Shown here: one piece after another, positions 5,474-64,000 of the stretch
Layout of the letters: every line of letters starts with the position of its first letter
How positions within the stretch are numbered: the first letter of the stretch is position 1
Assembly (NCBI GenBank): GCA_007674295.1
Contig: CM017460.1
Span: 1-64,000, forward strand
Origin: Antonospora locustae
Lineage: Eukaryota; Microsporidia
Reading direction: 5' to 3'
Length of the DNA stretch: 64,000 nt
Program-made: the position numbers and the translations under genes
The notes under the pieces: model-generated
Told to the model about the DNA's origin: nothing
Seen by the model: the letters and a program-made list of their open reading frames with translations, nothing else
Databases searched by the model: none

Positions 5474-5603
5474 GGGCTGTTTTTTATCGCCTGTAAGTGC
5501 AGTGAAGGCACTGTCATTGTGTGCTGTCACAAATGCAGGTTGACAGAATGTGCTGATGATTCGCACTCGAACGTGATGGCTGCAGAAATGGTTCTTTATT
5601 TGT

Positions 5604-36243: not shown

Positions 36244-36882
36244 ATGCTTGTTTACTTACTGCTAGCCTCGTCCAAAGTTCTGTTTCCGCACCTTGAAGGA
36301 AACACAAGTCTCTACTCTACAGGAGACCCTGGTCTTCTTCTTGTCAACGTCAAATATCCAGACAAACCGCTGACGCTCTTTGACTACGTGAGAAAGAAAC
36401 AGAACGTGTTACCTGTGGGTCTTCACGCAGTTGACGATGATGTGCTCAGATTTCAAGTATGGCACACGTATTATGAAGACAGAGGAAAGAAGTTTTGGCT
36501 TGAGCTTGAGTATGACCAGAGCATAAAAGTAAACCCAGGAGGCAACATGCTCCAGGGATATCGTGGAAGAACCGACTCTCCTTCAATGAATGCTGTTATG
36601 ATAAACGACAGATACTTCAAGATTGTATCCGGGGGGCTATGTTTGGAGGTTGAAACTACAAAGAGTGTGTACAGAGACGCGTATCCTCTCAAGTTCAGGC
36701 GCTGTGCAGATGTCGATCTACAAGCCTTCACGTTCGTGAGCAAGATGAAAGCTCTGTGCGTCTTGCAGAATGAGTTGTGTCCAAACGACAAGGACGACGT
36801 GTATGCAGCAGAGGCGATAGCATTGAACAGGCTGTTGCATTTTGCAGCACTTGCACCTGTCGATAGATCCGATACGCACTAG
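36244..36882 (+). CDS. Secreted beta-trefoil (ricin-B-like) protein 1
   Basis: 212 residues. Short hydrophobic signal (MLVYLLLASSKVLF). The array block is visible as 'YFKIVSGGLCLEVE', then 'LKFRRCADVD' and 'AFTFV', preceded by 'FWLELEYD'. It has a short tail without low complexity ('CPNDKDDVYAAEAIALNR'). This is the first of ten co-oriented secreted genes. A 'TTATAAGG' lies about 20 bases upstream of the ATG; no CCC is seen near the ATG. Sugar binding cannot be assumed, since the repeats are strongly diverged. Confidence 0.75.
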   Translation: MLVYLLLASSKVLFPHLEGNTSLYSTGDPGLLLVNVKYPDKPLTLFDYVRKKQNVLPVGLHAVDDDVLRFQVWHTYYEDRGKKFWLELEYDQSIKVNPGGNMLQGYRGRTDSPSMNAVMINDRYFKIVSGGLCLEVETTKSVYRDAYPLKFRRCADVDLQAFTFVSKMKALCVLQNELCPNDKDDVYAAEAIALNRLLHFAALAPVDRSDTH

Positions 36883-37423
36883 GGCCAAAATAAACGACTG
36901 TTGCTCTTATCTGCTTGAATGCACATGTAGTAGTCTTCACTTTGCCAATGGTGTGCTCACATTCATGCCACTAGCGAATAACCACAAGAACGGCTTTTGC
37001 GTGCGTTTACACACATGCACAAAAAGTTTTGCTGGACCAGATAGAATGAATTTTATGAATATACCAACCTAAAACTAGAAAACAGATACGCATCTCTTTC
37101 AATAGAAACTGACACTAAAAAGCTAAGCGTTGTGCTACAATGCAGGACAGATGAATTGCTAGATTGCAAAATGCTATGCTTCCTGTATGAGAAGCAGTGT
37201 GGTTTATTCTGCACAGAGGACCAACATATAGGTCGCTTTGGAATTAAAACTCAAACACCTGAAACATATTCTCCACAACACCTATAGACTGACAACTGCT
37301 ATTTGTATTTGCACTGATGAAATACAAAACAGGTTCTATTTCTCACTGAGTGCAGACGAACCAATCTTATCTTCTGAATGCTGAAACAACCATTCTGTAT
37401 GTAGAATATAAGGTAAACTTTCT
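36883..37423. other. Intergenic, nothing recognised
   Basis: AT-richer spacer. A short frame at 36842-37072 has no features. 'ATATAAGG' near 37407 may be the TATA-like element of the next gene. Confidence 0.5.
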
Positions 37424-38578
37424 ATGTTAAGAATGCTCTTGTTTGTGTTTATATGCACGCTGTATTCAGAAAATACTAACGGAAAGATTAACGAGATCTC
37501 ATATTTCTTAGATAAAGACCTCCACATTCTTTTCTCCGCATACATGCACATGGAGCTTGCGGAAAAGACAGTGACAGGCGAGATTAGTGGTGTAAACCGG
37601 CTTGTGGATGCCCGAGAATTCAAATACGATGATAGAGTCACCATAACAAAGAATGGTCCCGGGTATGAAATCAAAATAGGAAAGTCTAAGATTTGCAGAA
37701 ACAAGACGGATGTTGTGAAATGCCAAGACGGCAGTAGTGTTTGGAACATAGAGCCAAGAACGTTTGGATTTAACATATCCCAGGACGGACTTTGTATAAC
37801 ACAGATTGATGAGAATCCTCTCAAGCTCAAGCGATGCACTGGTGAGGACGACCAACTTTTTACCTTTAAGGTAGCTGGCGGGCGAGACAGATGCGAAGAA
37901 GCTGCACTTTTTGATGATGAGGGCCGTGTTGAAAAGAAGATGATAATTCCAGACATTCACATTTACCCTGTGTCTGACGTGCACGAAATGGGCCATAGTG
38001 AAAGTATTCGCACCTCTGAATACAGCATTGCGAGTAGTTCAGACGCATTAGACTATGAAACAACTACAGAAAAAGAGACCATTCCTGAAATACGGAGCCG
38101 CCAAAAAACCCCGGTAATAATACACGAACACAGAGATTCTGATTTTGTTCTACCAAGACGCAAGATAAGAATCCTCAGAAATGCTTACATAAATCGTGAG
38201 CATAGCAAAAATCACGATGTACTTCCGAAGCACGCTCTAAAGCGCCACAGAGAAGTACCTGTATTTCACAGGCACATAATACGCAAAGACACATTGCCAA
38301 CACACAGGTACATTAGCCCGTCTTATGGAAACTTCAGTCCTCGAAGACAAAAGAGTAGCGATGACTCTCAAAAGTCAGTTAAAGTGAGTCTAGATTTAGA
38401 AAATAACGATTTGAATCTGCATTTGCATGATGATCCGTCTTTTTCAGATGACTTACATTTACAAAAGGCACCAGGCGTGTTTGTAGAACGGCGCAAGCAC
38501 ACAAAATACAAGCACAGAAAGGAAAACATGTACTTAGAGAGAGGTGTTAGAAACACTGACAAGTTTTTGTTTCAATAA
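37424..38578 (+). CDS. Secreted beta-trefoil-like protein 2 with charged tail
   Basis: 384 residues. Signal peptide MLRMLLFVFICTLYSENTNG. Residues about 25-150 form the globular domain ('SKICRNKTDVVKCQ', 'VWNIEPRTFGFNI', 'GLCITQIDE', 'LKLKRCTGED', 'LFTFKV'). The rest is a low-complexity, Ser/His/Arg-rich tail with repeated basic clusters ('VLPRRKIRILR', 'ERRKHTKYKHRKEN'). The globular part is closest to the next gene (38749), which has the same 'K-x-C-x-R...VKC' spacing. Presumably exported by the parasite; partner unknown. Confidence 0.78.
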   Translation: MLRMLLFVFICTLYSENTNGKINEISYFLDKDLHILFSAYMHMELAEKTVTGEISGVNRLVDAREFKYDDRVTITKNGPGYEIKIGKSKICRNKTDVVKCQDGSSVWNIEPRTFGFNISQDGLCITQIDENPLKLKRCTGEDDQLFTFKVAGGRDRCEEAALFDDEGRVEKKMIIPDIHIYPVSDVHEMGHSESIRTSEYSIASSSDALDYETTTEKETIPEIRSRQKTPVIIHEHRDSDFVLPRRKIRILRNAYINREHSKNHDVLPKHALKRHREVPVFHRHIIRKDTLPTHRYISPSYGNFSPRRQKSSDDSQKSVKVSLDLENNDLNLHLHDDPSFSDDLHLQKAPGVFVERRKHTKYKHRKENMYLERGVRNTDKFLFQ

Positions 38579-38748
38579 AATGTAAAATGAGCACACTTTC
38601 ATACTGGAAAAAAACAGGAGCTTGTCTGCGTGCTTTGGCCAAAAGCCACGCTCTGCAAATATGCGTCACTGTGTGTTGTGTGAAACTGTTTTGTATTTGA
38701 AACTACTGGTTATATATGCACCCCTGAGCAACAACTAGTCATCTTATA

Positions 38749-39477
38749 ATGATAATCATTCTGTATGCTCTCACTGTTTTTTCAGAACACATAGACGATA
38801 TCATAAATAAAGAGTTAAGAATCGTGTTTCCATCATATTTGGAGTACTTTCTAGCAGACAATATGAGAGACCTTGGCGACGAGCCATTTGTTGTTGTAAG
38901 TGAGGATTCATACACAAGTGCCTTAAGCTACGTATCAAAGCTTCAGAGAGACGGCCGAATGTTTGCAATAACTGTTGGTGAGTGGAAGGTGTGCGAGAGA
39001 AGCAAGCGCATAGTCAAATGCGATGCAGAGACTGATCTGTGGGAGGTAAGACCGGTGAAATATGGATTTAACATTGTTAGAAACGAGAACTGCGTGACAT
39101 TTGGCGAAGAGGGCCTCGTGATGATGCCCTGTACGATGTCTAAGAGACAGGTTGTTGATTTTCAAGTTATTCCTGAGATACTTCAATGCTTTGAACGGTC
39201 AGGAAACCTGCTGGAGCCACCAGCTACGAACGAAGAGAGGCGATTGAGAAGGCTTCTAGGCAGAAAAATGAAAAGGCCAAGTCCAGCACTTGTGAATGAG
39301 ATTAATAGGGCAAACATAGCGCCAAAAACATTTGAGGATTTTTTGAAAAAGATGAGATTTGACAGAAAGAAGATGGAAAGGGCACAAGATACACTCAAGA
39401 AGCTCTGGGAAAAAACCTACATGAAAAAGCTACCTGGAATGTGGAAGGGAGGATGGTCCAAGCTATTTTGCACTTAG
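38749..39477 (+). CDS. Secreted beta-trefoil-like protein 3
   Basis: 242 residues. Signal MIIILYALTVFSEH. The domain parallels the preceding gene: 'ELRIVFPSYLEYFLAD' matches 'DLHILFSAYMHMELAE', and 'WKVCERSKRIVKCD' matches 'SKICRNKTDVVKC'. These are followed by 'LWEVRPVKYGFNI', 'NCVTFGEEG', 'LVMMPCTM' and 'VDFQVI'. The C-terminal 70 residues are basic and helical ('FLKKMRFDRKKMERAQDTLK'). It appears to be a tandem duplicate of 37424-38578 whose tail has been replaced. Confidence 0.78.
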   Translation: MIIILYALTVFSEHIDDIINKELRIVFPSYLEYFLADNMRDLGDEPFVVVSEDSYTSALSYVSKLQRDGRMFAITVGEWKVCERSKRIVKCDAETDLWEVRPVKYGFNIVRNENCVTFGEEGLVMMPCTMSKRQVVDFQVIPEILQCFERSGNLLEPPATNEERRLRRLLGRKMKRPSPALVNEINRANIAPKTFEDFLKKMRFDRKKMERAQDTLKKLWEKTYMKKLPGMWKGGWSKLFCT

Positions 39478-39606
39478 CATGTGCTTTGTCTACAAGTGCA
39501 ACGCTTTTTGAAAAACACAAAGTACGACTGGAACACAGAAGTTTTATGTAAGAACATGCAATACTGAAACAAAAATTTGCATTAAAGGCAGAGGTTTTAC
39601 ATTTAA

Positions 39607-40161
39607 ATGCTCTTTATTTTTGCTTTCCTACTATGTCTAGTGCACTCGGACCTTATTCGCCTGAAGTTTGTTGCAAACAACCATCTGTACTTGGCCCTGG
39701 ACAGAACATTCCTTGCTGAACCAAAGTTTGTTCCCGTGAGCAGACACTGGACACAGGTGCTTCCCAACTATTGCGGAGTTGCATCCAGAAGAAACATCGA
39801 CAATAACTTCAACGAGCTTTTCTTCTGTGGCTTCAAAATGTGCTATGACGAAGGCCAAAACACCGTGCGCGGGTGCAAGGGAAACGAACATGACACGATG
39901 TGGGAGCTTGTTCTCGTGGACGATAACACATATGTGATAAAGAACAGTGAAAATTGTATAACGCTCATAGGAGAGTCAAGAGTGGAAATGAAGAGGTGCT
40001 CTACGAAGAATATCGAACAAATGTTTATCGTTGAGCCATACGACAGAAAAAAACCCATACGAGTCGACACAGACGTGCCACTAGCTGTTCGTGAGCTGAA
40101 CATACGCAACCAGATGAGAGCAAACGAAGAGTTCTTCAGAAGAGAGTCGCTTCTTGTATAG
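39607..40161 (+). CDS. Secreted beta-trefoil-like protein 4
   Basis: 184 residues, the smallest member. Signal MLFIFAFLLCLVHS. The array block is 'TMWELVLVDDN', 'YVIKNSENCITLIGE', 'VEMKRCSTKN' and 'QMFIVE'. An upstream pair of cysteines ('FKMCYDEG', 'VRGCKG') matches the 'KxC...C' pair of proteins 2 and 3. There is almost no tail (about 35 residues), so it approximates the bare domain of the family. It converges with Nse4 (40242-41027). Confidence 0.75.
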   Translation: MLFIFAFLLCLVHSDLIRLKFVANNHLYLALDRTFLAEPKFVPVSRHWTQVLPNYCGVASRRNIDNNFNELFFCGFKMCYDEGQNTVRGCKGNEHDTMWELVLVDDNTYVIKNSENCITLIGESRVEMKRCSTKNIEQMFIVEPYDRKKPIRVDTDVPLAVRELNIRNQMRANEEFFRRESLLV

Positions 40162-40241
40162 CCTGTTCTTTCTCCACGTACCGGCCTACAGATAGAATGG
40201 GCTTTCTTTGCTACCATGTATGCTATTCGTACTCAAAAGCC

Positions 40242-41027
40242 CTAAGTAAATAGCGGTTCACTTACCTTAAGCTTCTCAACAAGCATGCAGTATTCACCGT
40301 ACTCCATGGAAACAATGAGGTGGTTGAGACTATCGCACGCAGCCTCCTGCTCAGCACAGACTAAAAAACACCCGTCTCTGCTAGCAAAGTGCACGAGACC
40401 CACCTTAATTGCAAATGCCAGGTAAAAGATATTCTCTACAGTTCTTGAATACGAAGTGGGATCAATGACAAGACGGTAGTAGTCAACCTCGCGCATTTCA
40501 TGTACAGCTTTTTTGATTTTCTTTACAAGAGTCAGCGTTCCGTCGTCGTCCTCTGCTGAAAATATTCTGAGAGGAAAGTCGGCCGAGGTGTCCTCAACCT
40601 TAGCTGTACATCTCTGCTTTTGATGCGTTTCCTTAGCAACAGGCCTCAGGCACAACTGGTGGACAAACTCTACGCCCACAAATCTGCTCTTCGCAAACTG
40701 CAAGTAGTCTTCGATAACGCGAATGCGGGATTGCTTATGCCTGATTACAAGCTCCACAAACTTCTCGGTTGTCATTCTATCGCTCATGCATTGCTTTTCA
40801 AAGGACACAGATGATATTTTTGCAGACTCGTTTGATATTCTTGCATCTAATTTCAGGTCCCACGGCTTTTTTATTTGGAGAAACAAGCTCTCAGTATTTT
40901 TTATCAAATTATCCATTTCTTCGCTGTCTCTTTGTGTCAAGTTCTCCTTGTTTGTGCGCATTTTCTTGAGCAAATCAAGATACTTGATCTTCAAGCTTTG
41001 AGAGCTGCTCTGAGATGCGTTTTCCAT
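40242..41027 (-). CDS. NSE4: Nse4-like subunit of the SMC5/6 complex
   Basis: 261 residues from the ATG at 41027, which is directly preceded by CCC; an ATG 15 bases upstream lacks that context. The C-terminal part is the recognisable Nse4 C-terminal domain: 'DYYRLVIDPTSYSRTVENI' followed by 'FYLAFAIKVGLVHF'. The N-terminal part ('YLDLLKKMRTNKENLTQRDS') fits the region that contacts the SMC neck. Shorter than the yeast protein (about 400). Nuclear; bridges the SMC5/6 heads in DNA repair. It is opposite in strand to the secreted array in which it lies. Confidence 0.85.
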   Translation of the reverse strand: MENASQSSSQSLKIKYLDLLKKMRTNKENLTQRDSEEMDNLIKNTESLFLQIKKPWDLKLDARISNESAKISSVSFEKQCMSDRMTTEKFVELVIRHKQSRIRVIEDYLQFAKSRFVGVEFVHQLCLRPVAKETHQKQRCTAKVEDTSADFPLRIFSAEDDDGTLTLVKKIKKAVHEMREVDYYRLVIDPTSYSRTVENIFYLAFAIKVGLVHFASRDGCFLVCAEQEAACDSLNHLIVSMEYGEYCMLVEKLKVSEPLFT

Positions 41028-41162
41028 GGGAAGCTTTTTCATAAAAGTTTAGCTTATAGAGTATCAAAAGATGTAGACTCATTAACCACAAATCTCAGTT
41101 AGGCGAGTTGTGCACCCCCATAGAGCTTTTACACTATAATGTAGCTAAACCCTGATTTTAAT

Positions 41163-41933
41163 ATGTTTTTTGTGTATTCACATTACAAGAAAAGGCGGGA
41201 TCTGGAGCCACTACTGAGACATGTGAAGGAAGAACTAGAATGCACTGAGAATGCAGAACATTCAGGGCTGCATGGTATTTTCGTTCTAGGAGGAGACGGC
41301 ACGTTGCTTCACATGGTTTCGCAACTTGAAGGTAGACTTCCAATAATATATGCATTTAATTGTGGAAGCTACGGGTTCTTAACACCCTTTCAGTCAGACC
41401 AAGTGGCTGATGTCGTCTCCAAAATCAAAGGTGGCTTTCCATTTGAGGTCATAGAGAGGGCCATGCTGGAAGTAGCAGGACATGGCCGCGCTCTTAACGA
41501 CATTCTTATAACTAGATGCAACCATGGCAAACTGAATAGGTTTGGCATACATATTAATGGATACCTCATAGGGGAGGTTAGATGCGACGGGGTTTTGTTA
41601 TCCACTGTTTCCGGCTCTTCCGCATACAACTACTCCTGCGGTGGACCCATTCTATCCAACTCGTGTGACTCGTTTGTTCTGAACCTCATCAACCCCTGCC
41701 AGCTTCACTGCAGGCCCATCGTTCTTGGAAGACAAGACGATGTTAGGATAGTTGTTTTGGACAATCTGCACGACGACTCAAAGCCGCTCTGTGTTATCGA
41801 CGGCCACAAATACATTTCAAACGTGTGCGAGCTTTCGATAAGAATGTCGTGCGACCCTGCTATGTTTGCTTCATTTGAGCCGCAAGAGAGACGATTTTCG
41901 CAGGACATCAACAGGCTATACCGTTTGGTATAA
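41163..41933 (+). CDS. NAD kinase
   Basis: 256 residues, a short form of the family. 'VLGGDGTLLHMVSQL' is the GGDG nucleotide motif; 'NCGSYGFLTPF' corresponds to the usual N-x-G-x-LGFLT. 'CDGVLLSTVSGSSAYNYSCG' followed by 'GPI' is the second conserved motif (usual form TPTGSTAY). It phosphorylates NAD to NADP, supplying the NADP pool; with glutamate-cysteine ligase nearby it hints at a retained redox defence. CCC lies about 11 bases upstream of the ATG. Confidence 0.92.
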   Translation: MFFVYSHYKKRRDLEPLLRHVKEELECTENAEHSGLHGIFVLGGDGTLLHMVSQLEGRLPIIYAFNCGSYGFLTPFQSDQVADVVSKIKGGFPFEVIERAMLEVAGHGRALNDILITRCNHGKLNRFGIHINGYLIGEVRCDGVLLSTVSGSSAYNYSCGGPILSNSCDSFVLNLINPCQLHCRPIVLGRQDDVRIVVLDNLHDDSKPLCVIDGHKYISNVCELSIRMSCDPAMFASFEPQERRFSQDINRLYRLV

Positions 41934-42062
41934 TGCGTCCGTTTTACAGAAGACTTTGGTGTCTTGTTGTTTCATCTCTTTCTGCTAATACTTGCTGTTT
42001 CAGAGTGAGAAAATCATGAAACACATTGCTCTAAATTTATAAAACACGTGTAAACAAGACAC

Positions 42063-43256
42063 ATGTTTGGCAGACATGCTCTCTGTGTCACAGTGGCTTT
42101 TGCATATGCAGCAGCCTCACGAAAGTCTCTTACAATCGTTAGTCTTATAGACAACGAGCCAATGACAAAGAATGGTAGGTTCGGAAGTGAAGAGAGCGAC
42201 CAGGTTGAGGAATTCAAAGCAGAAATAGTGACTCCAAAAATAAAGATATGGAACAGCGAAGACATGGTACTTCATGTGATAAACAAGGCATTGCGATGGG
42301 AAGCAAATAGCGACCGGGAAAGTGCCTTGTGGACGTATGTGCCGGTAAGCAACGAGGGTGGAATGCTCAGTGGAAAGGGCGGCCTGTGTCTTTTCAGAGA
42401 CGAGGACCTTGTATCACTGAGGGAGTGTCCTGATAATCCTAGTAGCCTAGTAAGCGAGTACATGTTCAAGCTTGATATCGAAACAAACCCAAACGATTTA
42501 AAAAGATGTGAAAGAGTTATCGTTGAAAATCAGGAGGAGAAAGGTAGAAAAAAGGAAACGAGCGATGTAAGAAGCCATGGGAATGGTGGATCAGGAATAA
42601 AGAATAGAAGCTCTACACAACCCATAGAAAAAAACAACCTTGATCCTAAAAGAGGTGCGCGCGAAAATGCTGACCGCGGTAGCACATCTGATGTAGGTGG
42701 TGGAAAGAGAGGGCCTAGGTATCCCAAAGACGACAGCAGGCGAAATTACGATGACAAAGACAGCAGCAACGAATATCCAAGACAAAGAGATAGAGATATG
42801 CAGGACGAGCCACCAAGCACATACAGATACTCAGAACGAGATTCTAGAAACGGCGAGTATGTTGGAAAGCCACGCGTTTCAGAGAGAAGGTTTCCTGAGG
42901 ATATTGGCCGAGGAGACTCTGCTGACCCAGAGAGAGACAGCCGGTACTTTGACAAGGATTTTCAAAGAGAACACAGTAGCCAGGGCAACTTTATGAAAGG
43001 TGGACAAGATGGAGCCTATAGAGGGGACGCAAAAAACAGAATGGTGCCAAAAGAACAGAACAGGGACTATGGCAGACAAGGCACGGGCGTCTCGTGCAGA
43101 GACGATCCTTTTTCCTGTGGCTTGCTCCCTGAAAATGGTAGAAAACCCCCACAGGGAAATACTCTAGACGAGAATGCACTAAGCACACTTATTCAACTTA
43201 TAAAAAAATTTCAGCAGGAAAGGCTAAGCAATGGGTCAAACACACAACATGCCTAG
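42063..43256 (+). CDS. Secreted beta-trefoil-like protein 5 with Arg/Asp/Ser-rich tail
   Basis: 397 residues. Signal MFGRHALCVTVAFAYAAAS. The domain covers residues about 20-150: 'FKAEIVTPKIKIWNSED', 'LRWEANSDRESALWTYV', 'GGLCLFRDED', 'VSLRECPDNP' and 'YMFKLD'. Residues about 165-360 are low complexity, rich in Arg, Asp, Ser, Gly and Tyr ('YPKDDSRRNYDDKDSSNEY'), and should be disordered. A short helix closes the protein ('LSTLIQLIKKFQQERL'). The domain is related to the next two genes. Confidence 0.77.
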   Translation: MFGRHALCVTVAFAYAAASRKSLTIVSLIDNEPMTKNGRFGSEESDQVEEFKAEIVTPKIKIWNSEDMVLHVINKALRWEANSDRESALWTYVPVSNEGGMLSGKGGLCLFRDEDLVSLRECPDNPSSLVSEYMFKLDIETNPNDLKRCERVIVENQEEKGRKKETSDVRSHGNGGSGIKNRSSTQPIEKNNLDPKRGARENADRGSTSDVGGGKRGPRYPKDDSRRNYDDKDSSNEYPRQRDRDMQDEPPSTYRYSERDSRNGEYVGKPRVSERRFPEDIGRGDSADPERDSRYFDKDFQREHSSQGNFMKGGQDGAYRGDAKNRMVPKEQNRDYGRQGTGVSCRDDPFSCGLLPENGRKPPQGNTLDENALSTLIQLIKKFQQERLSNGSNTQHA

Positions 43257-43653
43257 CTAGTTTCTTAAGTATGCTTGAATACAGGGGTTGTTCGGCTACG
43301 GACTCGCTATGAGTTTCAAGTGCAAAGTGCTGTGGCAACACAATACAAACATAACACGCATAGAAGCTAACATTCATGATGTTGTAGCTAACAGGAATAC
43401 AGACTACAGCCTTGGTGCCCTCTGGAGCAAAGATATGACTAAACTCTTATATTTGAAAGATCTGTTCTATTCCTACATGAATAGCATCATCTTTGCTAGT
43501 TTCATTGTACAGATTCAATTATTCTCGTCCGAATGTTGTGGAGTGTGTCTCTTCCACAGTTACGATTGAAACATGTGCTGAAAAGAGTCCTATGGCTTTC
43601 ATCTGTTCTGCATTTATGAAACACACGTTTTCCATAAAAATAAAGATAGGCAC
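43257..43653. other. Intergenic; weak 86-codon frame
   Basis: A plus-strand frame beginning at the ATG near 43309 ('MSFKCKVLWQHNTNITRIE') runs to 43569. It has no signal peptide and no array block, and I regard it as unsupported. Confidence 0.35.
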
Positions 43654-44961
43654 ATGCGCGTGATGTATTTGACTCTTTATTTTCTGGCTGCAGAAGCCCT
43701 AATAGCATCCAGATCCATACTGTACATACAATCAGCAGAGGACGGAAAGTACTTGAATCTAAGTGGGAACTTTGAAGATTTCGAAGAAATAAAACATCAG
43801 TTTCAATCTGAGCTAAAGACAGAAAAGGGAGAGCCTCCGTACATGAAAATTAGAAATGGAGAAAACAGATACCTTTCTGTGAAGGACAACACACTTATTT
43901 GGACAAACGAAGACCTTGGTTTAAAGTGGTACAGCACATTTGTAAAAACAAATGAGGTAATGCTGAGTGAGCAAAATGGAAAGTGTTTTGCAAGAGAAGG
44001 GTCTCAAATTACCTTGAAAAGCTGCGAAGACATTGAAAACGATGATGACGTGTCTCATTTTAAGCTTCTACTTGCTCCGACGCCGCAAGAGATAAAGCAT
44101 GCACGCTCTGTTTTGAAAGAGAACAAGGAGCAAAGTAGAATGCTCTCTCGAGAGAATAACAATGCAAGAAGAGGAGAAGGCAGAAGTATGAGCGGCACTC
44201 GAAGCGGCATCAGTGACTCGCTCACGTGTCCGATGAGGAAATTGCCAGATGGTGGCCTCGACCCAGAAAGTCCAGGAAGATACGGTAAAGACGACAGCAG
44301 TCCAGACAACCTGTTAAGAAATTGGGTAGAAAATGACTACACACCTGAGAGAGATGCAAAAGTGCCGCCAAGGGGCGTAGAGAGTACTCCCCAAGGTCGA
44401 GTTTTATTAGAAGGTCCTGCGAAAGATAGAGATTTGGATAGCACACCTCGAAGCAGCACGTGCAGGGCTCTGGAAAGAGAGCGGGGCAATTCAGGTGACC
44501 CGTATAGCGTTCAGGACTACACCAAGGCACTGAATATTGCGCGAAGGTATGCAGAGGATCAGGCAGGTCAGAACACGATGCCTCTTTCAAAAGCCGATGA
44601 ACACGATGAAATTTCAAGTGATCCAATCAAAGCGTTAAACGATCTCAAGAAAATGCTGGAAAAGAATCAAAGAAAGGTGCTCAGTGAGGCAGTGAAGCAA
44701 AAGGAAAAAGTAAAGAATGATGTTGACAAGAAGAGAGAGGAGGTATTGAAACAGTTGTTGGACGACATCTCAAAGCTGCAAAGAGAAAAAGAGGGACGCA
44801 TGATCAGACATGCAGCAGTAAGTATGGGAGACGGCCGTTTTCCAGTAGAATCGTCGGAAGACAAGCACAATAACGACCAATACAATGATCTTAAGATGAT
44901 AAAAGAAACACTGCAGAAGTTACAGGAGCAGCTTGATCCTCTGTTGAGGAGAGAGAGATGA
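43654..44961 (+). CDS. Secreted beta-trefoil-like protein 6 with coiled-coil tail
   Basis: 435 residues; the start could also be the fourth codon (MYLTLYFLAAEALIAS). Signal peptide present. Domain: 'ILYIQSAEDGKYLNLSGNF', 'YMKIRNGENRYLSVKDN', 'LIWTNEDLGLKWYSTF', 'GKCFAREGS', 'ITLKSCEDIE' and 'HFKLLL'. The first of these is the best beta-trefoil repeat in the array and matches 'IPIKIQSTVDDRYLDLSG' of the next gene. A polar segment follows, then a coiled coil of about 75 residues ('KALNDLKKMLEKNQRK', 'EEVLKQLLDDISKLQREKEG'). Confidence 0.8.
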   Translation: MRVMYLTLYFLAAEALIASRSILYIQSAEDGKYLNLSGNFEDFEEIKHQFQSELKTEKGEPPYMKIRNGENRYLSVKDNTLIWTNEDLGLKWYSTFVKTNEVMLSEQNGKCFAREGSQITLKSCEDIENDDDVSHFKLLLAPTPQEIKHARSVLKENKEQSRMLSRENNNARRGEGRSMSGTRSGISDSLTCPMRKLPDGGLDPESPGRYGKDDSSPDNLLRNWVENDYTPERDAKVPPRGVESTPQGRVLLEGPAKDRDLDSTPRSSTCRALERERGNSGDPYSVQDYTKALNIARRYAEDQAGQNTMPLSKADEHDEISSDPIKALNDLKKMLEKNQRKVLSEAVKQKEKVKNDVDKKREEVLKQLLDDISKLQREKEGRMIRHAAVSMGDGRFPVESSEDKHNNDQYNDLKMIKETLQKLQEQLDPLLRRER

Positions 44962-45475
44962 GTACTTCAAACCTGTCAAATTATGAAAATCGTGCAGGCT
45001 AATTACTCAGCAGACAAGCTCACTTCTGTCTATTTTTATTACTTGCAGCAGCCACTTTAGTACAAATAAAGCATTTTGTGAACGGTTCTTGCAAGAGATG
45101 TGATATCAAGTGCATTTTTAGAAGGAATTATTTCTGTGCATGTTCGTGCACACAACCTCAAACACATTTTGTGACTCGTTACAAAGCTTTCTGCCCGCTA
45201 CATTTGCAGCACAGATGCATGCACTCATTAACACGAGCATTCGTTGACAGGGGATATCTTCTCTATGCATGGCACTTGAGTGCTGGCTGTAATGTCTTAT
45301 ATGACACTAACTTCCTAGGTAGGGCGGCAAGTACATGTAAACAAGGGTATTTGTAGATCTTCCTTATAGAAAGTTGTGCATGGTGTACCAGACGATAAAT
45401 TGAAAAGAGAGTTTGAGACGAAAATGTGAAACACTTTTCAATCTCGCTCTATTTATTTCCATATGCAGCGTTCAC
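44962..45475. other. Intergenic, no supported gene
   Basis: A cysteine-rich frame at 45078-45356 lacks an ATG and a signal peptide. The region just before 45476 is open in the frame of the next gene but has no ATG. Confidence 0.45.
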
Positions 45476-47005
45476 ATGCATACTCACGTTGGGACACTGA
45501 ATGTTTTTTGTTTTGCTCTGGCGTGCCTATGCAAGATTCCCATAAAAATACAATCTACCGTTGATGACCGGTACCTGGATTTATCAGGAGAGTTTGTAAA
45601 GAAAGAAAACCAGAGAACTAGGTTTTATGCAGAGATTGTGAACGAAGACCCAGAAGACTTTAGGTTCAGAATTGTAGATGGGAGGGGAAGAGCACTAAAT
45701 GTCAGGCAGAAGGACCAGCGTCTTGTATGGACAAGGCCCAAGGACGATGGCACAGTGTGGTCTGTGCGCAAACTTCCGGACAGAGAAACGGGGTATGTGA
45801 TGACCGACACCTGTCTCTGTCTAAAGCACTCTCCCGACAAAGTGTATCTGGAGATGTGTCCCAAGTCAAAAAGTACAGCAGCCTGCCCTGACTACATCTT
45901 CAAGGTGTCTTTCAAGTTCAATAAGAGGAAGCTTGGCGAGTGCCGCATGGTTCTGGCGGCTGAAAGGAATTGCAAAGCTGCGGAAAATGCAAAGGCAATT
46001 GCTGATTGCGCAAGGACATTCTGCAGTGGTAGAAGATCGTCAGTACGAGCTGAATGCAGCACTTGCAAAAAGATTGGATGCTGCAAGCCAGGGCCAGACG
46101 CTGTTCGCGTGATTGACGCAAGAAAAGCACTAAGCAATAGTCCATGTGAGTGCAACGACAGCTCAAACAGACACACAAATCCATTGGCGATATCAAATGT
46201 TCCAACAAGTGCCAGAAGTCCAAGAGGAATGTGCAGCAAAAGCGGGGCATCTACAAACCCTAAGTTGAACATGGTTCTGCAGGAATATGGCGATGCGTAT
46301 GAACTTTCAGAACTTGGCGGCGATAGTAAAGTAGAAGAAAGTAAGAGAAAGAATGACATATTAAGCAGTATCGCAGGTGGTCAAAAGCAGAGAGAAAATA
46401 TCGTTCATAGTGATGAAGAGATTCCAAGCAGAAGACAGTATCTCGTATTGAATTCACAGGAGAACAGCAATGTATCTGGAAACAGTCTGGATAGTGCTGC
46501 TGTTAAGGAGATCATCAACGCAATTACAGTTCTCAATGGCGACGGAGAAAAGAATGCTCAGAACAGTCTGGAAAGTGTGAAAAATGCCCTGATAAAGAAT
46601 CTTTCTAGCGAGACTCTTGAAGCTATGGCAAAGGAAAAGAGAAAGCTCGAGGATGACGCGGCACTGAAGATTGGAATACTAAGTAAGCAACTTGCAGAGT
46701 CAAAGGACAGAGATGGTCTCTCGAGGACGTCTTCACAGAATAAAAGAAGCTCTGCAGAAAACATGCTGGAAAGAATAACAATGGCAGCAGCAGACACAAG
46801 ATATTCGAGTGATAAAACGACAAGAAGAATAAACAACGTGGCTGGCGAGCCTGACAACATATCGAAGGTGTTTGGCGACCGCGAAACTAAGAAAAAGGAA
46901 GAGTCTGTCACGAACAGCATGGGAGAGATTGCAAGTCTTGCGAAGAGTCTTGCGCCGCCACAGGTCTCACTTGCCACAAGCATTCTGTCAAAGCTTGGAA
47001 TATGA
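45476..47005 (+). CDS. Secreted beta-trefoil-like protein 7 with Cys-rich segment
   Basis: 509 residues from the first ATG (45476). Signal MHTHVGTLNVFCFALACLC. Domain: 'IPIKIQSTVDDRYLDLSGEF', 'FRFRIVDGRGRALNVRQKD', 'RLVWTRPKDDGTVWSVR', 'CLCLKHSPD', 'VYLEMCPKSK' and 'YIFKVSF'. It is unique in having a cysteine-rich stretch after the domain ('CARTFCSGRRSS', 'CSTCKKIGCCKPG'), then a Ser/Asn-rich and helical tail ('ETLEAMAKEKRKLEDDA'). The longest array member. Confidence 0.8.
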   Translation: MHTHVGTLNVFCFALACLCKIPIKIQSTVDDRYLDLSGEFVKKENQRTRFYAEIVNEDPEDFRFRIVDGRGRALNVRQKDQRLVWTRPKDDGTVWSVRKLPDRETGYVMTDTCLCLKHSPDKVYLEMCPKSKSTAACPDYIFKVSFKFNKRKLGECRMVLAAERNCKAAENAKAIADCARTFCSGRRSSVRAECSTCKKIGCCKPGPDAVRVIDARKALSNSPCECNDSSNRHTNPLAISNVPTSARSPRGMCSKSGASTNPKLNMVLQEYGDAYELSELGGDSKVEESKRKNDILSSIAGGQKQRENIVHSDEEIPSRRQYLVLNSQENSNVSGNSLDSAAVKEIINAITVLNGDGEKNAQNSLESVKNALIKNLSSETLEAMAKEKRKLEDDAALKIGILSKQLAESKDRDGLSRTSSQNKRSSAENMLERITMAAADTRYSSDKTTRRINNVAGEPDNISKVFGDRETKKKEESVTNSMGEIASLAKSLAPPQVSLATSILSKLGI

Positions 47006-47325
47006 TCGTTTGCTGCAATATAGGACAATTCTCAGGAGCTCGCAACGTTGCAAAAAGCTTTCCAGCCTAGTGAACCAATAGGATACTAACTTACAAACAT
47101 ACATTGCAAGACAACACAACGATAAAGTTGATGTAACAAAAGGTATGCCCAAAGATTGTGATTGTGTTCGTGCAGCCCTAATCAACCAACAAATTATTCC
47201 TAAAGAGTGCATCATGCCTTTAAAAAACACTTTGCCTATTTGTACAGCATTAGCTTGTACACGAGACAAAATTTTCTGAAACGATGTTTTAAACTTTGCA
47301 CAAAAACTTGTATGAGACTATTTAC
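47006..47325. other. Intergenic, nothing recognised
   Basis: No open frame with support and no RNA gene recognised. Confidence 0.5.
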
Positions 47326-48369
47326 ATGATTCTTGCCATTCTCCCTCTTGTCTGTTGTAGTGCATCAGTTGTGAAGATTTTGCAAGGTGAAGGTGGTGAA
47401 AACGCAGTAGCACTGGCTGCAGACGGAAACAAGCTTGTGGCCACGCGAAACCTCGGCGATGAGAGATCAGAATTCATCATTAGCAAGATCAGTGAAGCTG
47501 CAGAGCCTGCCATTGAGATAAGCCCGATCGCAGCGCCAAAGAAGAAGCTGGTGGTGGGGCCTGACAATGCAATACGAATATCCTCTGGAGACGAAAGACA
47601 GAGGCCATGGTCTGTTAAGAAGGAAGGTGAAATGCACAAACTTGTTGTTGGCAACATGTGCATGAGCCTCCGTGGCCGAACGGCAATAATGGAGATCTGC
47701 CAGCGAAACAAACCGTCCCAGGCATTCATGATAACTTCAGGCGACGAGGACTCAAAAGAATGCTCTAACAGCAGCGACTGCGAGCAGGACTACCATGATC
47801 ACAAGCACATTGTGCATCATCATGTCGGTGACGGCAGCGATGGGGCACACCACAGGCCAAGTGCTGCAAAACGCCGCCACTACGGACTGGCGTCGAGTGA
47901 TGAAGCAGAATATGTGCATATTGTGGACAATAAACCTGAGACTGTCACAGATGTGGTTGTTAAGACAAGCTACAAGACGATTACTCTCCACACGACATCG
48001 ACTGTGACTAGCACAGTAAGCTCTTTTGAGGTAGACACCTGTACTCCTCGCACGGGATGGCGAAGCCTGAGCAGAAACAAGAATTTGAAGTTTCCAAAGA
48101 GTGTGATCGTGCATGTACACGAGGAAGCGAACGATGAAGTATCTCTCGAGGCAGAGCCGGAAAAGACACTCAGTAAAGGTACAAACTTTGTGCAGAATGT
48201 TGTCTGTGCGAAGAAAGATCATGATATAGTGTCCGAAAGTTCTTCAGAAAACGGGCTCGAAGACCTCATAAAGGTGTTTAACGAAAATGACAGGCATTCG
48301 GGGTTCATTGACATAAGAGCGCCGAGAATTTTCACCGCTAAGTGCGACAAGACGCCCACCAAGAAGTAG
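47326..48369 (+). CDS. Secreted beta-trefoil-like protein 8 with His-rich segment
   Basis: 347 residues from the ATG at 47326 (MILAILPLVCCSASVV), which begins a signal peptide; the frame is open further upstream without ATG. Domain: 'NAIRISSGDERQRPWSVKK', 'LVVGNMCMSLRGRT', 'AIMEICQRNK' and 'AFMITS'. Directly after the domain lies a histidine-rich stretch ('DYHDHKHIVHHHVGDG', 'AHHRPSAAKRRHYG'), then a Thr/Ser-rich part ('TSYKTITLHTTSTVTSTVSS') and an acidic tail. The histidines could bind metal, but this is not shown. Confidence 0.77.
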   Translation: MILAILPLVCCSASVVKILQGEGGENAVALAADGNKLVATRNLGDERSEFIISKISEAAEPAIEISPIAAPKKKLVVGPDNAIRISSGDERQRPWSVKKEGEMHKLVVGNMCMSLRGRTAIMEICQRNKPSQAFMITSGDEDSKECSNSSDCEQDYHDHKHIVHHHVGDGSDGAHHRPSAAKRRHYGLASSDEAEYVHIVDNKPETVTDVVVKTSYKTITLHTTSTVTSTVSSFEVDTCTPRTGWRSLSRNKNLKFPKSVIVHVHEEANDEVSLEAEPEKTLSKGTNFVQNVVCAKKDHDIVSESSSENGLEDLIKVFNENDRHSGFIDIRAPRIFTAKCDKTPTKK

Positions 48370-48840
48370 CAGTGCTCTCTCTTATCCTGGTGATGCCTGC
48401 CAGCTTCTCCGGGGAGTTTTTTCGACACTGGAATGTCTGTGTTTGGACCAGGATATTGAAATGAATAGTACACGGTAGCTCTTTTGATAAGCCTGTTTCT
48501 TTACAGACAAGCATCCGATAATGCTAATACTTAGGGTATTCGTGTGTATTGCGAGTCACTCACTCTGCAGCCTACCATTCAGGCCATAGCAGCTGAACCA
48601 AGTGCAAGGATTCGAAAACATCTGCTCTATGAGCGTACTGTTCTCGATCGGTCTAGGTCCACTCTTCTTCAAAGACAGCACGGAGCATCTACACTCAAGA
48701 AGACACTGCAGCGATAGGTTCTGAGCGGTACTCAACGTTTCAGTGACAGGTAACCCCTAGATTTAGATTTGTGCGAATGCCTCTAACCGTTGTGAAACAG
48801 GGTACCCGATTTTAGCATTCTCCAGGCAGGAAGTACAGGA
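48370..48840. other. Intergenic, nothing recognised
   Basis: No supported coding frame and no tRNA recognised. 'ggattcgaaaa' near 48607 was examined as a T-loop and rejected. Confidence 0.5.
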
Positions 48841-49830
48841 ATGATAAGAATAAGAATGGATGAAGTGTTTCGCACACTTTGTGTGCTACTTGTGTGTATT
48901 TCAGACGCAGCTTGTCTGGAGGAAAGAGGATGTATTCTTTCAGTAGAGGCACAGGAATTTGTATCTTTCGATCCCGAGTCAAAGCACGTATTTCTAGAGC
49001 ACACACACGAACCAAAGCGGTTTGTCGTATCAGAGTACAAGAAAAATGGCACAGTGCAGGAGGTTGTTGGTGTTCCCGAGCTAAACCAGTTTTTTGGTGT
49101 GTCCGGAAATGTACTGTCGCTTGTCAGCGTTGATGATGACTTTCTATACCTACACCGCGTGCCTCAGAACCTTGTGAAGATGCGCACACAAAGAAGATGT
49201 GTCTGCACAAGTTACAGCAAGAGGCATCTCCTGCTTGAGAAGTGCGACTTCTACGAGGACGACATCGGGCAGTACTTTGCGTGGATCGAGACCAGCATCT
49301 GCAACGATGTTAGCGAGGTGCTCATGAGACTGAAGAGTCAGAACCGCCTGATCAAGAAAAGCCTTCTCAGACGGCTTGCTGACGAGATCGCGCACAGGGC
49401 TGACTCTGACGATGAGGGCAAGCACGAGAGGTTGCATAGAAGACACCGGAGCCGCCTTCCTGCAATAGACGAGGAAAAGTCTAGCGAGCAGATGCTGCCA
49501 GCCTTTTTCAGAAAGGGAGCACAGGAAGGTGTGCGCAGGGTGCTTGGCAGCCTTGGTTCTACGAACTCTAAAAAGCACGTGAAAAGAACGCAGATAATGC
49601 ACAGAGACAGAAATAGAAAGAGAAGCGACGAAAAGACAAAAAACTTGCATGTTTCATATATTTACAACGAGCCATTTGATGTTTCCGAAAGCAAAGACAA
49701 CATATCGGATGACTGTATGGACATGATGGAGACTAAAAACGAGCACGAATCAGGCAGCAGGGAGTTTTCTCTGTCAAACATGTCAAATCGCATTTTATCT
49801 GAGGAAGCTTGCAACATGCTGCGCCTTTAG
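48841..49830 (+). CDS. Secreted beta-trefoil-like protein 9 with basic tail
   Basis: 329 residues. The N-terminus MIRIRMDEVFRTLCVLLVCISDAA contains a signal segment; starting at the sixth codon is possible. Domain: 'GCILSVEAQEFVSFDPESK', 'KRFVVSEYKKNG', 'FLYLHRVPQNLVKM', 'RRCVCTSYSKR', 'LLLEKCDFYEDDIGQYFAW'. The last block is shared closely with the next gene ('AVECDNFENAPGQYFRW'). The tail is basic with many dibasic pairs ('HRRHRSRLP', 'RDRNRKRSDEK'). Confidence 0.78.
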   Translation: MIRIRMDEVFRTLCVLLVCISDAACLEERGCILSVEAQEFVSFDPESKHVFLEHTHEPKRFVVSEYKKNGTVQEVVGVPELNQFFGVSGNVLSLVSVDDDFLYLHRVPQNLVKMRTQRRCVCTSYSKRHLLLEKCDFYEDDIGQYFAWIETSICNDVSEVLMRLKSQNRLIKKSLLRRLADEIAHRADSDDEGKHERLHRRHRSRLPAIDEEKSSEQMLPAFFRKGAQEGVRRVLGSLGSTNSKKHVKRTQIMHRDRNRKRSDEKTKNLHVSYIYNEPFDVSESKDNISDDCMDMMETKNEHESGSREFSLSNMSNRILSEEACNMLRL

Positions 49831-50077
49831 GCGAGGCCACAAGCCTCTTTATTTCCAGCAGCCGGTCTTTTCGGAATAAACGTGTATTGATTAAACACAG
49901 GTTACAGACTGTGCACGTTTCAGACGGGAATAAAGCTGCATAGGCCCTTGCAATGTGGAAACCGGAAGCTACGGTGCAGCTGCACCTCAAACCGGTCCAG
50001 TATTTCTTGCTACAAAATTGTCACGGAAACGCGAATGCAGGAGGTAAAAGGAAGCGAGACACACGGCCACTGTTTCT

Positions 50078-50875
50078 ATGATAGCTTTCATCATATTTGT
50101 AGGCCTTGTGCGTCTTCTTGAGGAAGAGGGCTACTTGTACTCGGTGCACACGAGGAAGTTTCTGACGTACAAGCCGGTCTCAAAGGAATCCCGAATATTT
50201 CTGGCACGGAAGGACAAAAGGCCCAAGAAGTTTCAAATAAGCGAGCACTCTGGCAGACACTCGGGCTCTCTGAGAATAACGCCAGCGGAGAGGGACGTGA
50301 ACAGCTTGGTTCTGGACAGAAGCGGGTACAACGCAGACCTGATACAGTACGAAGAAAACGGAGGAGAGAACCAGATATGGTGGCTGGCACTCGTTCCGAG
50401 AGCGATGGTAAAGCTCTGGGTATCTGGAGAGTGCATAGAGGCGCGAAGCGACAGCTACTATCTTAAAGCGGTGGAATGCGATAACTTCGAGAATGCGCCA
50501 GGACAGTATTTCAGATGGGTGCCTGTGCAGCTGGAGAGGTTTCTGAGAAAGGCGGAGCGTGACCGTGAATACGGAAGACGTCCGCGAGAGGCGAAACACC
50601 GTGAGTACCGCCCACAGCGCATGCGCGTCCACGAGGACCCAAACGCAGGCTACGAAGACCTGCCCTTCTCTGATTTCGAGCCTTATGGTGACCGTCCGCA
50701 CCATCATAGCGACTACTTCGAGGAGCGCGGCAGGCCGCGGAGAACGAGTGGCTGCGAAAGCTGCAGAAACACGTGCAGACCCCGTGCAAACAGCTACGAC
50801 ATGGAAGATGACGAGCTACTTGAGCGAATATACGAGTTCGACAAGTTCACTGCGGGAAGCCTTTTTTCGTACTGA
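50078..50875 (+). CDS. Secreted beta-trefoil-like protein 10 with Arg/His-rich tail
   Basis: 265 residues. A short signal-like start (MIAFIIFVGLVRLL). Domain: 'EEGYLYSVHTRKFLTYKPV', 'KKFQISEHSGRH', 'IWWLALVPRAMVKLWVS', 'GECIEARSDS', 'YLKAVECDNFENAPGQYFRW'. It is the close paralogue of the preceding gene, including the spacing of the final C...QYFxW block. The tail is rich in Arg and His and contains 'CESCRNTC', a possible small metal or disulfide knot. The last member of the array. Confidence 0.77.
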   Translation: MIAFIIFVGLVRLLEEEGYLYSVHTRKFLTYKPVSKESRIFLARKDKRPKKFQISEHSGRHSGSLRITPAERDVNSLVLDRSGYNADLIQYEENGGENQIWWLALVPRAMVKLWVSGECIEARSDSYYLKAVECDNFENAPGQYFRWVPVQLERFLRKAERDREYGRRPREAKHREYRPQRMRVHEDPNAGYEDLPFSDFEPYGDRPHHHSDYFEERGRPRRTSGCESCRNTCRPRANSYDMEDDELLERIYEFDKFTAGSLFSY

Positions 50876-58100: not shown

Positions 58101-60050
58101 TCACGAAAAGTCGCGATTGATGCTTGTGGAAAACTTTCCGATATTTCTATTGCCTACACGCACATAGACCCACGAGTAGGAGCCTTTCTTCACTCTCCTC
58201 TCTTCAAGGGTCCTCTTCAGCACCATTTCTCGAAGGACGGAATCAACGAATTCCTTGCTGTGAGAAGCACCCCGTCCGAAGCTTTTGCATTTTGCGAAGC
58301 GCGCAAGACGCTTTGACCTGCTTCCGCGGTACGTGCCAAGAATGGCGCCCAGTGGCACTCCCGGAAAGTTGTGTGTACACCTGCTTCTGCTATCGCCTTC
58401 GCACTGATCGCAGGAGAGCGTGACAAGCTCGTCAACACACTCGACGAGTTCCTTCGCAACGTCCGTACAGTCCGTCTCCACTCCGCTGCAATTATCGCAC
58501 GTCCCTTTGCACTGTTCCCTCTCAAAGCACTCTCCGAAATGCCTCATCAGAAAAACCCGTCTGCACTCCTTTGAAACGCAGAATTCCACCATTTTTTCAA
58601 GTTCCGTGACGCCTCCTCCTCCGCTTTTCTTGAGCAGCCATTCAATTCTATGTCTATCAACCGGTGCATAATACAAAACGCAGATGCTTTCCAGACCATC
58701 TCTTCCAGCCCTTCCAATCTCCTGATAGTACCCTTCCACTGACTTGGGCATCGAGTAGTGGATGACATATCGCACCTCTTTCTTGTCGATTCCCATTCCA
58801 AATGCTATCGTTGCAACAATTATCAAAACTTCGTTTCTGCTCCACTTTTCCTGAATTGCATTTCTTTCTGCTTTGCTGAGCCCTGCATGATAGAATGCAG
58901 TTCTCAGATTCAGGCTGTTGAGCTTCTCGCTCAGCATCTCGCACTCCCTCTTTGAGAGACAGTAGATTATCCCGCTTGCATTCGGATAGTAACACTCAAT
59001 GAAAGACACGATCTCGTTGTATGTCTTTTCTCCTCGAAGCTTTACTCTCAACTTGAGATTCTCTCTATTGAAGGATGTCTTGAAAACTTTGCACGTCACA
59101 CCAAGTTCCTCCTGAATCGTTGTGATGATCTTTGGAGTGGCAGTTGCGGTTAGCGCCATAATTGGTGTGGAGAAGTTGTTTCTGATCCACTTGAGTTGTA
59201 AGTAGTCTGGACGGAAATCTGTCCACTGTGTCATACAATGGCACTCGTCTATCACAAATCTGCTGAGTCTCCCTTCTCTGTACAACTCGCTTAGTATCTG
59301 CCGAAAATATCCGGATTGTGCGATAAGCTCGGGAGTAATGTAAAAAATTTTAACAACCCCTTTCTTCATACATTGGAAGATGAGCTCTCGCTCACCTTTA
59401 CTGACAGAGGAGTTCAATGCGAGGCTTAGAATTCCCCGGTTCAAGAGAGACCTGACTTGGTCTCGAATTAGGCTGAGAAGAGGAGAGATGACGATCGTAA
59501 CGCCTCTGTCTATCAATGCAGGAAGCTGATAGCAAAGAGACTTCCCTCCCCCTGTTGGCATCAGAACAAAGATGTCTTTTCTTTCCAATGCAGCTTCAAT
59601 CACTCGTCGCTGGTCTCCTCGAAAGCTGTTAAGCCCGAAAACATTTTTGAGGTAGCACTCGAGTATGTCTTCCTCTTGCTGAATCTGGGTGCTCCTGATT
59701 TCCTGAGAGCCTTGTTCCACATCATGATCGGGACTCGCTTTGAACACAAATTCCTCATCAGAAAGCGTGATTGATCTTTCATCAGAAAGCGTGATACTTT
59801 TGTATGGACGCTCCTTGTGTGGAATTCTTTTCCTCACATTGTCTGCAATAGAAGTACTGCTCATACTTTCTGATGAGTCTTGGCTTAGACCGTTGCTCTC
59901 ACTTGCAAAGGTTATCGTCTTGTTGAGCATAATGATATCTAAAGAATCATTTGGTTCCCCCCCATCGCCCTCCCCTATGGCACTACCCACACAGTCAAGA
60001 GCTACGTTTATGAACGTGTCATCCTCGTCAAGCGCGTGATGTGTCGTCAT
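58101..60050 (-). CDS. RecQ-family DNA helicase
   Basis: 649 residues; the ATG at 60050 is directly preceded by CCC. After an acidic N-terminal region of about 130 residues come the SF2 motifs: '[13 protein letters not shown]' (motif 0), '[16 protein letters not shown]' near residue 165 (Walker A), '[18 protein letters not shown]' near 270 (DECH rather than DEAH, with the RecQ aromatic loop altered from the usual SQW), '[10 protein letters not shown]', then '[20 protein letters not shown]' and '[12 protein letters not shown]'. The RecQ zinc-binding region follows ('[16 protein letters not shown]') and a winged-helix part. No HRDC domain. 3'-5' helicase acting in recombination and replication repair. 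Confidence 0.93.
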
Positions 60051-60053
60051 GGG
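60051..60053 (-). promoter_or_regulatory. CCC start-proximal motif (RecQ); representative of about 15 sites
   Basis: CCC touches the start codon. The same motif is found next to or within about 12 bases of the starts of copies A and C and both LRR-only genes (5474, 14286, 6873, 16106), the diverged LRR gene (20195), Rbg1 (21515), alanyl-tRNA synthetase (22351), ER Hsp70 (25173), Pin1 (30946), Ste24 (32855), the 32998 gene (32987), eL43 (35830), Nse4 (41028), NAD kinase (41150) and uS8 (53644). A CCC-like motif upstream of start codons is known from microsporidian genomes. Confidence 0.7.
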
Positions 60054-60726
60054 CTCTTAATTTTTATTTAATGAAGATATCTGTAATAAATTAAGCTTTT
60101 CTCATTTATATATCATCTTGTTTCTCTTCTTTGCATTCAAAACCTTCTCATTGCGTGAATACGGAGTAATTTAATTGTTAACTACAAAACGTAACATATT
60201 TTTTACCTGTGGTACGTTTGTACGTTCTTATGAGCGTGTGTTTGGATAATAGTGTGGGTTAAGTTATTTGAATTAAACAATATGAAAGTGCTCACTCTAA
60301 CATCACAAACAGTGAGTGTTAGCCTCTACACCCTTCACTTTTTTTATATACAATTTCTAAGAAAAAGAATTTAAATAGGTTCGCATTTAAAAAACAAAAA
60401 CAATTTAAGCATGTATTAAATAATACTGAATCAAAAATAAATTGAAGTTTTTTGTAAAACAGTCTCATCAAAATTTTAATTCTATATATAGAGTTTCATT
60501 TTATTCAAAAAAATCATTTGTAGGTATAATTTGTTATAAATAAAACTCTATGTGTTGTATAACATGCCTTTTTTATTATTTATTTATTTTTATAAAAACA
60601 TGAAGCCTGTAGATACGATATATTTTTTCTGAAAATTGAATAGTTGATTTGTTGTAAAATATAGCTTATATTTATTTATACAAAAATTAATCACTGCTGT
60701 ATAAGAATTTGACTTAATTTGTAAGC

Positions 60727-60844
60727 AGCTGCGGTCATATCCACAGTAGAGCACCAGAACCCGTCAGATCTCTGAAGTTAAGCCTGTGAGAGCCTGTGGA
60801 GTACTTGGGTGGGCGACCACCTGGGAAATGCAGGTACTGTAGCT
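60727..60844 (+). rRNA. 5S ribosomal RNA
   Basis: 118 nt. The ends pair as a nine-base helix (AGCUGCGGU with ACUGUAGCU). Conserved eukaryotic blocks are present in order: 'gcggtcatatccac', 'ctgaagttaagc' (internal box A) and 'gtacttgggtgggcgacc' (box C region), then 'cctgggaaatgcaggtactg'. It is a complete gene with a T run directly at its end, transcribed by RNA polymerase III from internal promoter elements. It stands out as GC-rich in the AT-rich island. Confidence 0.95.
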
Positions 60845-60848
60845 TTTT
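60844..60848 (+). terminator. RNA polymerase III terminator of 5S rRNA
   Basis: Run of five T starting at the last base of the 5S rRNA, the usual polymerase III stop. Confidence 0.8.
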
Positions 60849-63800: not shown

Positions 63801-64000
63801 TTTTTTATAATTTGATAGCACATGTTTTTAAATTAAGAGTATCACTTTTAGGTTAATATATTCTCCAAAAATTTTTAAAAAATACGACGTAATTAATTTT
63901 AAATATTGCTCATTTATTTTATTAAATATGATATGATTACATATGAATTAAATGGTAAATTTGCAATTTTATATAAAATTTGTATTAATAAGACCTATTA

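Follow-up and report, generated by a model that had tools for sequence, protein, structure and literature searches.

Background

What does a group of ten neighboring genes for secreted, only distantly similar proteins do for a microsporidian parasite, and is such a group new? We examine this question in positions 1-64,000 of contig C14 (CM017460.1) of Antonospora (Paranosema) locustae, a species used in locust control whose genome comprises 3.17 Mb in 17 contigs; this stretch is hereafter called the window. An initial annotation, made from the sequence letters, had described ten plus-strand genes (here g1 to g10) as a tandem array of secreted proteins sharing one diverged, ricin-B-like beta-trefoil domain, and had raised the possibility of an effector or spore-surface system not described before. 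Our analysis shows that the ten open reading frames (ORFs) are a real, coherent gene family. We consider it probable that they form one ancient, locally duplicated secreted family, in which g2 and g3 encode PTP4 and PTP5 and most of the others are destined for the spore wall or the polar tube.

Published work describes comparable proteins in several microsporidia. PTP4, PTP5 and PTP6 are lectin-fold proteins whose genes cluster, ptp4 and ptp5 are adjacent in every genome analysed, and RBL1 and RBL2 are conserved with one gene per species (PMC10759460). PTP4 was the first protein of the polar tube for which a host receptor was reported: in E. hellem it shows an epitope at the tube tip and binds transferrin receptor 1, and interference lowers invasion; in A. 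algerae it likewise lies at the end of the polar tube. Nosema bombycis has 52 ricin B lectin-like genes, up to 19 of them in tandem on one scaffold (PMC9224602). In A. locustae itself, a lectin encoded on contig C9 (ORF1551) was detected in spores and not in intracellular stages or the host cytosol (PMC3976299).

Results

Ten genes for predicted secreted proteins

All ten ORFs begin where the initial annotation placed them, and the last ends at 50875.

36244..36882, plus strand: g1, 212 amino acids (aa); trefoil-like last repeat, domain at about residues 18-172, hhalign link to g2
37424..38578, plus strand: g2, 384 aa (381 aa from the second ATG); candidate PTP4, trefoil domain at about residues 21-154
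38749..39477, plus strand: g3, 242 aa; candidate PTP5
39607..40161, plus strand: g4, 184 aa; nearly the whole protein is trefoil domain
42063..43256, plus strand: g5, 397 aa; trefoil domain (profile links) and long charged tail, groups with g6 and g7
43654..44961, plus strand: g6, 435 aa; domain at 43708-44082, a beta-trefoil in a confident model; tail long and charged
45476..47005, plus strand: g7, 509 aa; trefoil domain (profile links), Cys-rich stretch, then charged tail
47326..48369, plus strand: g8, 347 aa; most isolated member, tail contains His
48841..49830, plus strand: g9, 329 aa; sister of g10
50078..50875, plus strand: g10, 265 aa; trefoil (modelled), ricin-type site motif D ... NQxW in repeat two

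Hydropathy is in keeping with the signal peptide claimed for each protein. Every N-terminus contains a hydrophobic stretch, with a best 9-residue Kyte-Doolittle mean of 2.07-3.33 (weakest in g6, 2.07, and g1, 2.33), above all eight non-secreted control proteins (at most 1.88); an Hsp70 of the endoplasmic reticulum type reaches 2.61. Each product would comprise a signal peptide followed by a single ricin-B-type beta-trefoil; all but g1 and g4, which are short, also carry a charged tail that in most cases evolves faster. The tail of g2 contains His, that of g3 is distinctly basic (K+R 26%, D+E 11%), and those of g5-g7 measure 244-360 residues, whereas the N. bombycis proteins (NbRBLs) are reported at 20-35 kDa (PMC9224602). 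The g7 tail also has a Cys-rich stretch ahead of its charged part (11 Cys, residues 137-226), a feature its neighbors lack.

One family, duplicated long ago

Only the neighbors g2/g3, g5/g6/g7 and g9/g10 had been said to align well, and phmmer recovers these same three clusters, with E-values (for a ten-sequence search) of about 3e-14 for g2/g3, 4e-13 for g9/g10 and about 2e-10 for g5 and g6 against g7. Weaker links join g4 to g3 (1.1e-4) and g1 to g2 (0.003). When homologues are added, hhalign connects g7 to g6 (P96, E 6e-9), g1 to g2 (P75-81; at P81, E 1e-5 over 35 columns), g8 to g10 (P20-33, E 4e-4 to 1e-3, 88 columns) and g2 to g4 (P24 in one direction, P5 in the other). Across clusters, 12 of 80 profile-profile comparisons reach E 0.01, against none of 90 reversed decoys; the best decoy lies barely above this value, and the remaining 68 comparisons miss it.

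Three protein searches, with g9 and g10, g5-g7, and g2-g4, returned 9, 5 and 14 proteins, counts that include those of the window itself. Homologues were found for g1, g2, g3, g4, g6, g7, g9 and g10, the g1 homologue solely within the database protein P0023 (88% identity); g5 had none among the 7997 candidates sharing most words that were scored in the g5-g7 search, and g8 was not used as a query. Domain identity between species is 56-95% (85-92% for the three homologues of g9), against about 25% between neighbors within the genome (24% for g9/g10), and the duplications therefore predate these species. They are also judged old because a search with 12-base seeds found no DNA repeat of at least 25 bases in the array. 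In 22 comparisons of domain with tail, the domain is more conserved in 17, tied in 3 and less conserved in 2, both of the latter involving g4, for which 34 tail residues were compared. Equal longest-contig sizes for the homologues of g3/g4, g9/g10 and g6/g9 suggest that gene order has been kept.

The assembly of the chicken louse Menopon gallinae includes a 1.95 Mb contig that encodes Antonospora-like proteins and is marked UNVERIFIED_CONTAM. This microsporidian-like contig carries homologues of g1 and g2 (P0023) and of g3 (P0022) under consecutive locus tags. The gene model PYX00_011547 fuses the g1 and g2 homologues, which is probably an annotation slip.

A beta-trefoil related to ricin-type lectins

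Structure models were made for two of the ten proteins, g6 and g10, one for each of two clades, and both are beta-trefoils; confidence, as predicted local distance difference test (pLDDT), is 92 for g6 from a domain-trimmed alignment and 46 for g10 untrimmed. As far as these two models reach, the beta-trefoil, ricin-B-like reading appears right. In a scan of 24736 Pfam families, g4 comes nearest to the ricin-B models (CDtoxinA 1.4e-4, 21.9 against a cut-off of 22 bits; Ricin_B_lectin 0.005, 17.5 against 29 bits), g8 matches Ricin_B_lectin at 0.056, below the cut-off, and the other eight match no ricin model. Six homologues were scanned singly: P0023 (g2; 0.0021), P0028 (g4; Ricin_B_lectin, 2.8e-4) and P0009 (g10; 0.0033) match ricin-B models, P0025 (g4) matches CDtoxinA alone, and P0021 (g2) and P0022 (g3) match no ricin model. 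RicinB_lectin_2 is matched by three of the nine g9/g10 sequences, and an NCBIfam scan gave no related family. Profile searches of the PDB returned ThreeFoil for g9/g10 (5.5e-4, with no single stretch significant alone), matches confined to the tail for g5-g7, and nothing significant for g2-g4, where the best trefoil was cytolethal distending toxin C (0.25).

The initial annotation had also reported a common W, C, C, F order in each protein. In its literal form this pattern matches g3 alone. Relaxed forms, widened after inspection of the ten sequences, were compared with 44 other ORFs of the window and with shuffled mature proteins. The first matches eight of ten (not g1 or g9) and none of the 44, with 0.08 expected in ten shuffled proteins; the second matches seven (not g1, g9 or g10) and 2 of the 44, again with 0.08 expected. 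The loosest matches nine (not g1, which has no W at the expected place) but also 22 of the 44, with 1.9 expected, and is uninformative. Chance as the source of the pattern is rejected for the set as a whole, although the literal form misses nine of ten and the relaxed forms were fitted afterwards. We also scored each protein and 1000 shuffles of it with a profile trained without its own cluster; for g1 to g10, the shuffles scoring at least as high as the real protein number 3, 39, 211, 6, 5, 17, 28, 250, 36 and 9, which is weak support for g2, g7 and g9.

We read the W as the end of repeat two, the two cysteines as a pair within repeat three, and F-x-V as the end of repeat three, at the QxW position that is often QxF. 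QxW or QxF closes the last repeat in six of the ten (g1, g2, g4, g8, g9, g10) and is absent in g3, g5, g6 and g7. A second cysteine pair lies in repeat two of g2, g3, g4 and the contig C1 pair listed below.

Further lectin-fold genes in the genome

At least three more lectin-fold genes lie elsewhere in the genome.

L004:1385-1969 and 2157-2681, minus strand, contig C1: adjacent pair, predicted secreted lectin-fold proteins, 194 and 174 aa
L005:1801-2301, minus strand, contig C9: ricin B-like lectin ORF1551, 166 aa; the published forward primer matches the ORF start exactly

The total of 13 family genes is a lower bound, from own-genome searches with g1, g2, g4, g6, g8, g10 and two Pfam families. 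The C1 proteins are probably secreted; in comparisons among the 13 sequences they match each other at 3e-10 and g4, the closest of the ten, at 2e-6 and 7e-7. The C9 ORF has the published length of ORF1551 and is the only one of the 13 over a Pfam lectin cut-off (RicinB_lectin_2, 31.1 against 25.6 bits). The own-genome search with PF14200 found it alone; that with PF00652 gave no match, its controls were equally silent, and it is uninformative.

Two of the ten are most likely PTP4 and PTP5

For A. locustae, a table in a published review gives lengths of 381 aa for PTP4 (ORF969) and 242 aa for PTP5 (ORF968) (PMC7040029). The database copy P0016 is g2 from its second ATG, 381 aa, and P0015 is g3, 242 aa; the two genes are adjacent on the same strand, g2 ending at 38578 and g3 starting at 38749. 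By length and adjacency, g2 is most likely PTP4 and g3 PTP5 of A. locustae. The suggestion of an undescribed system consequently survives only in part: clustered lectin-fold genes are known elsewhere and two of the ten are very probably already named, whereas our searches of open-licence papers gave no description of the array or of its eight unnamed genes. The kind itself is known; what is new is that PTP4 and PTP5 are accompanied by eight more relatives.

A putative sugar site in g10

A putative sugar-site motif, D or E followed by NQx[WFY], occurs in repeat two of g10 and of its four homologues, and in 21 of 2000 shuffled versions of g10. Matches in g9 and two of its three homologues were judged to straddle a repeat boundary and were discounted; the other eight array proteins have none. 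The C9 lectin has the motif with E replacing D. g10 would therefore be the sole array member that keeps the canonical motif, and this confinement is our ground for regarding g10 as a probable glycan binder. The others are more likely to bind protein than glycan, by analogy with E. hellem PTP4 and transferrin receptor 1.

The surrounding window

The array described in the initial annotation is interrupted, its layout being g1-g4, a two-gene break, and g5-g10. The break consists of two unrelated genes.

40242-41042, minus strand: Nse4-like gene (PF08743, 4.3e-15)
41163-41933, plus strand: NAD kinase gene (PF20143 and PF01513)

The array is flanked by glutamate-cysteine ligase upstream and by chitin synthase and ribosomal protein S8 downstream. 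The assignment of the DNA to Microsporidia, made from the letters, was right. The S8 protein at 53649 has 127 residues identical to chain 6zu5_SW0, from a structure that we take to be the P. locustae ribosome. At 25176 begins an Hsp70 ORF of 679 aa, the published length, and its start is an exact match to the forward primer published for A. locustae Hsp70.

A second clustered family lies in the same 64 kb, in keeping with the leucine-rich-repeat multigene families reported for A. locustae.

3860-5641, 5604-6872, 7938-10952, 12385-14109, 15243-15845 and 18874-20208, minus strand: six ORFs with leucine-rich-repeat matches

Positions 60050-64000 have a G+C content of 19-24%, against 38-50% in the rest of the window, contain a 5S ribosomal RNA gene (60727-60845), and have no ATG-started ORF of 80 aa.

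Discussion

We propose that most of the eight relatives of g2 and g3 would be packed into the spore wall or the polar tube, because PTP4 is found at the tube tip in E. hellem and A. algerae and because the C9 lectin is spore-only. The trefoil would serve as a folded binding head and the tail as an anchor or variable spacer, and at germination the locust cell would meet an assortment of adhesive heads, which may act in invasion. By these analogies, the choice between effector and spore protein is tilted toward the polar tube and spore.

Like PTP4 and PTP5 elsewhere, the array proteins are predicted to be secreted, have a ricin-B-type trefoil and come from adjacent genes, with g2 and g3 at the A. 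locustae lengths, and as in PTP4 the N-terminal half is better conserved than the C-terminal half. Unlike PTP4 and PTP5 elsewhere, which are described as a pair, the two lie here toward one end of a set of ten genes, together with eight more relatives. The array resembles the NbRBLs in being clustered, strongly diverged and, by prediction, mostly secreted, with QxW drifting to QxF where the motif is kept and the domain often below detection; it differs in belonging to another genus and in its old duplications, without repeats of 25 bases or more. The RBL1-9, PTP6 and RBLL-1 clades are also secreted trefoils that are often clustered (PMC10759460). ORF1551 shares genome and fold family with the array (PMC3976299), but it lies outside the array and exceeds the RicinB_lectin_2 cut-off, which none of the ten does.

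The strongest competitor to this reading, though still unlikely in our estimation, is that, apart from PTP4 and PTP5, the cluster encodes mainly effectors that the intracellular stages release into the cytoplasm or nucleus of the host cell. NbRBL28 reaches the host nucleus and affects cell-cycle genes, several NbRBLs increase in the course of infection (PMC9224602), the basic g3 tail and the other charged tails may hold nuclear signals, and faster-evolving tails are consistent with host contact. Against this, the only A. locustae ricin-B-like lectin tested is spore-only (PMC3976299), two array members fit polar-tube proteins, and the domain identity between relatives suggests to us slower change than effectors in an arms race would show. 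It seems to us quite improbable that the domain belongs to another beta-trefoil superfamily without descent from ricin-type lectins: ricin-B models are matched at E 0.056 to 2.8e-4 among the Pfam families by g4 and g8 and by single homologues of g2, g4 and g10, and also by three of nine g9/g10 sequences, repeat two of g10 bears the D...NQxW signature, and the lectin fold of PTP4 and PTP5 is already published (PMC10759460). We regard it as very improbable indeed that g9/g10 are the PTP5/PTP4 pair and g2/g3 other lectin-like proteins. g9 and g10 are likewise an adjacent, diverged pair, and g10 at 265 aa is near Encephalitozoon PTP4 (276-280 aa); however, g2 (counted from its second ATG) and g3 agree with the published A. 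locustae lengths and with the consecutive ORF numbers. PTP4 homologues have four cysteines in common; the domain has two cysteine pairs in g2 and g3 but one in g10.

Several points weigh against our reading of a secreted, spore- or tube-loaded trefoil family that includes PTP4 and PTP5. The names of g2 and g3 come from length and adjacency. The fold comes from two modelled members, with profile links for the other eight; none of the ten reaches a curated Pfam cut-off, so that we do not claim formal Pfam membership, and none of six g5-g7 sequences matches any ricin model. The relaxed forms of the pattern beat shuffles, but the leave-cluster-out profile fails for g3 and g8, which are unsupported there (211 and 250 of 1000 shuffles). 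Placement in the spore or tube draws on relatives, and it need not hold for all ten, because NbRBL28, a lectin-fold protein, goes to the host nucleus (PMC9224602).

Conclusions

None of the ten proteins reaches a Pfam cut-off, and fold-based annotation is therefore needed. The array adds a species to the structure-based survey of PMC10759460, whose figure legend covers seven species, A. locustae not among them. If PTP4 is indeed encoded among eight relatives that are still uncharacterised, this locus would supply ten candidate invasion proteins instead of two. A bolder possibility, which we hold to be doubtful, is that the locus is a polar-tube-head cassette, with PTP4 and PTP5 as two of ten trefoil adhesins held together by joint use and each with its own ligand, g10 binding sugar and the rest protein. 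If this were true, this single cluster would determine the specificity of the Antonospora tube tip.
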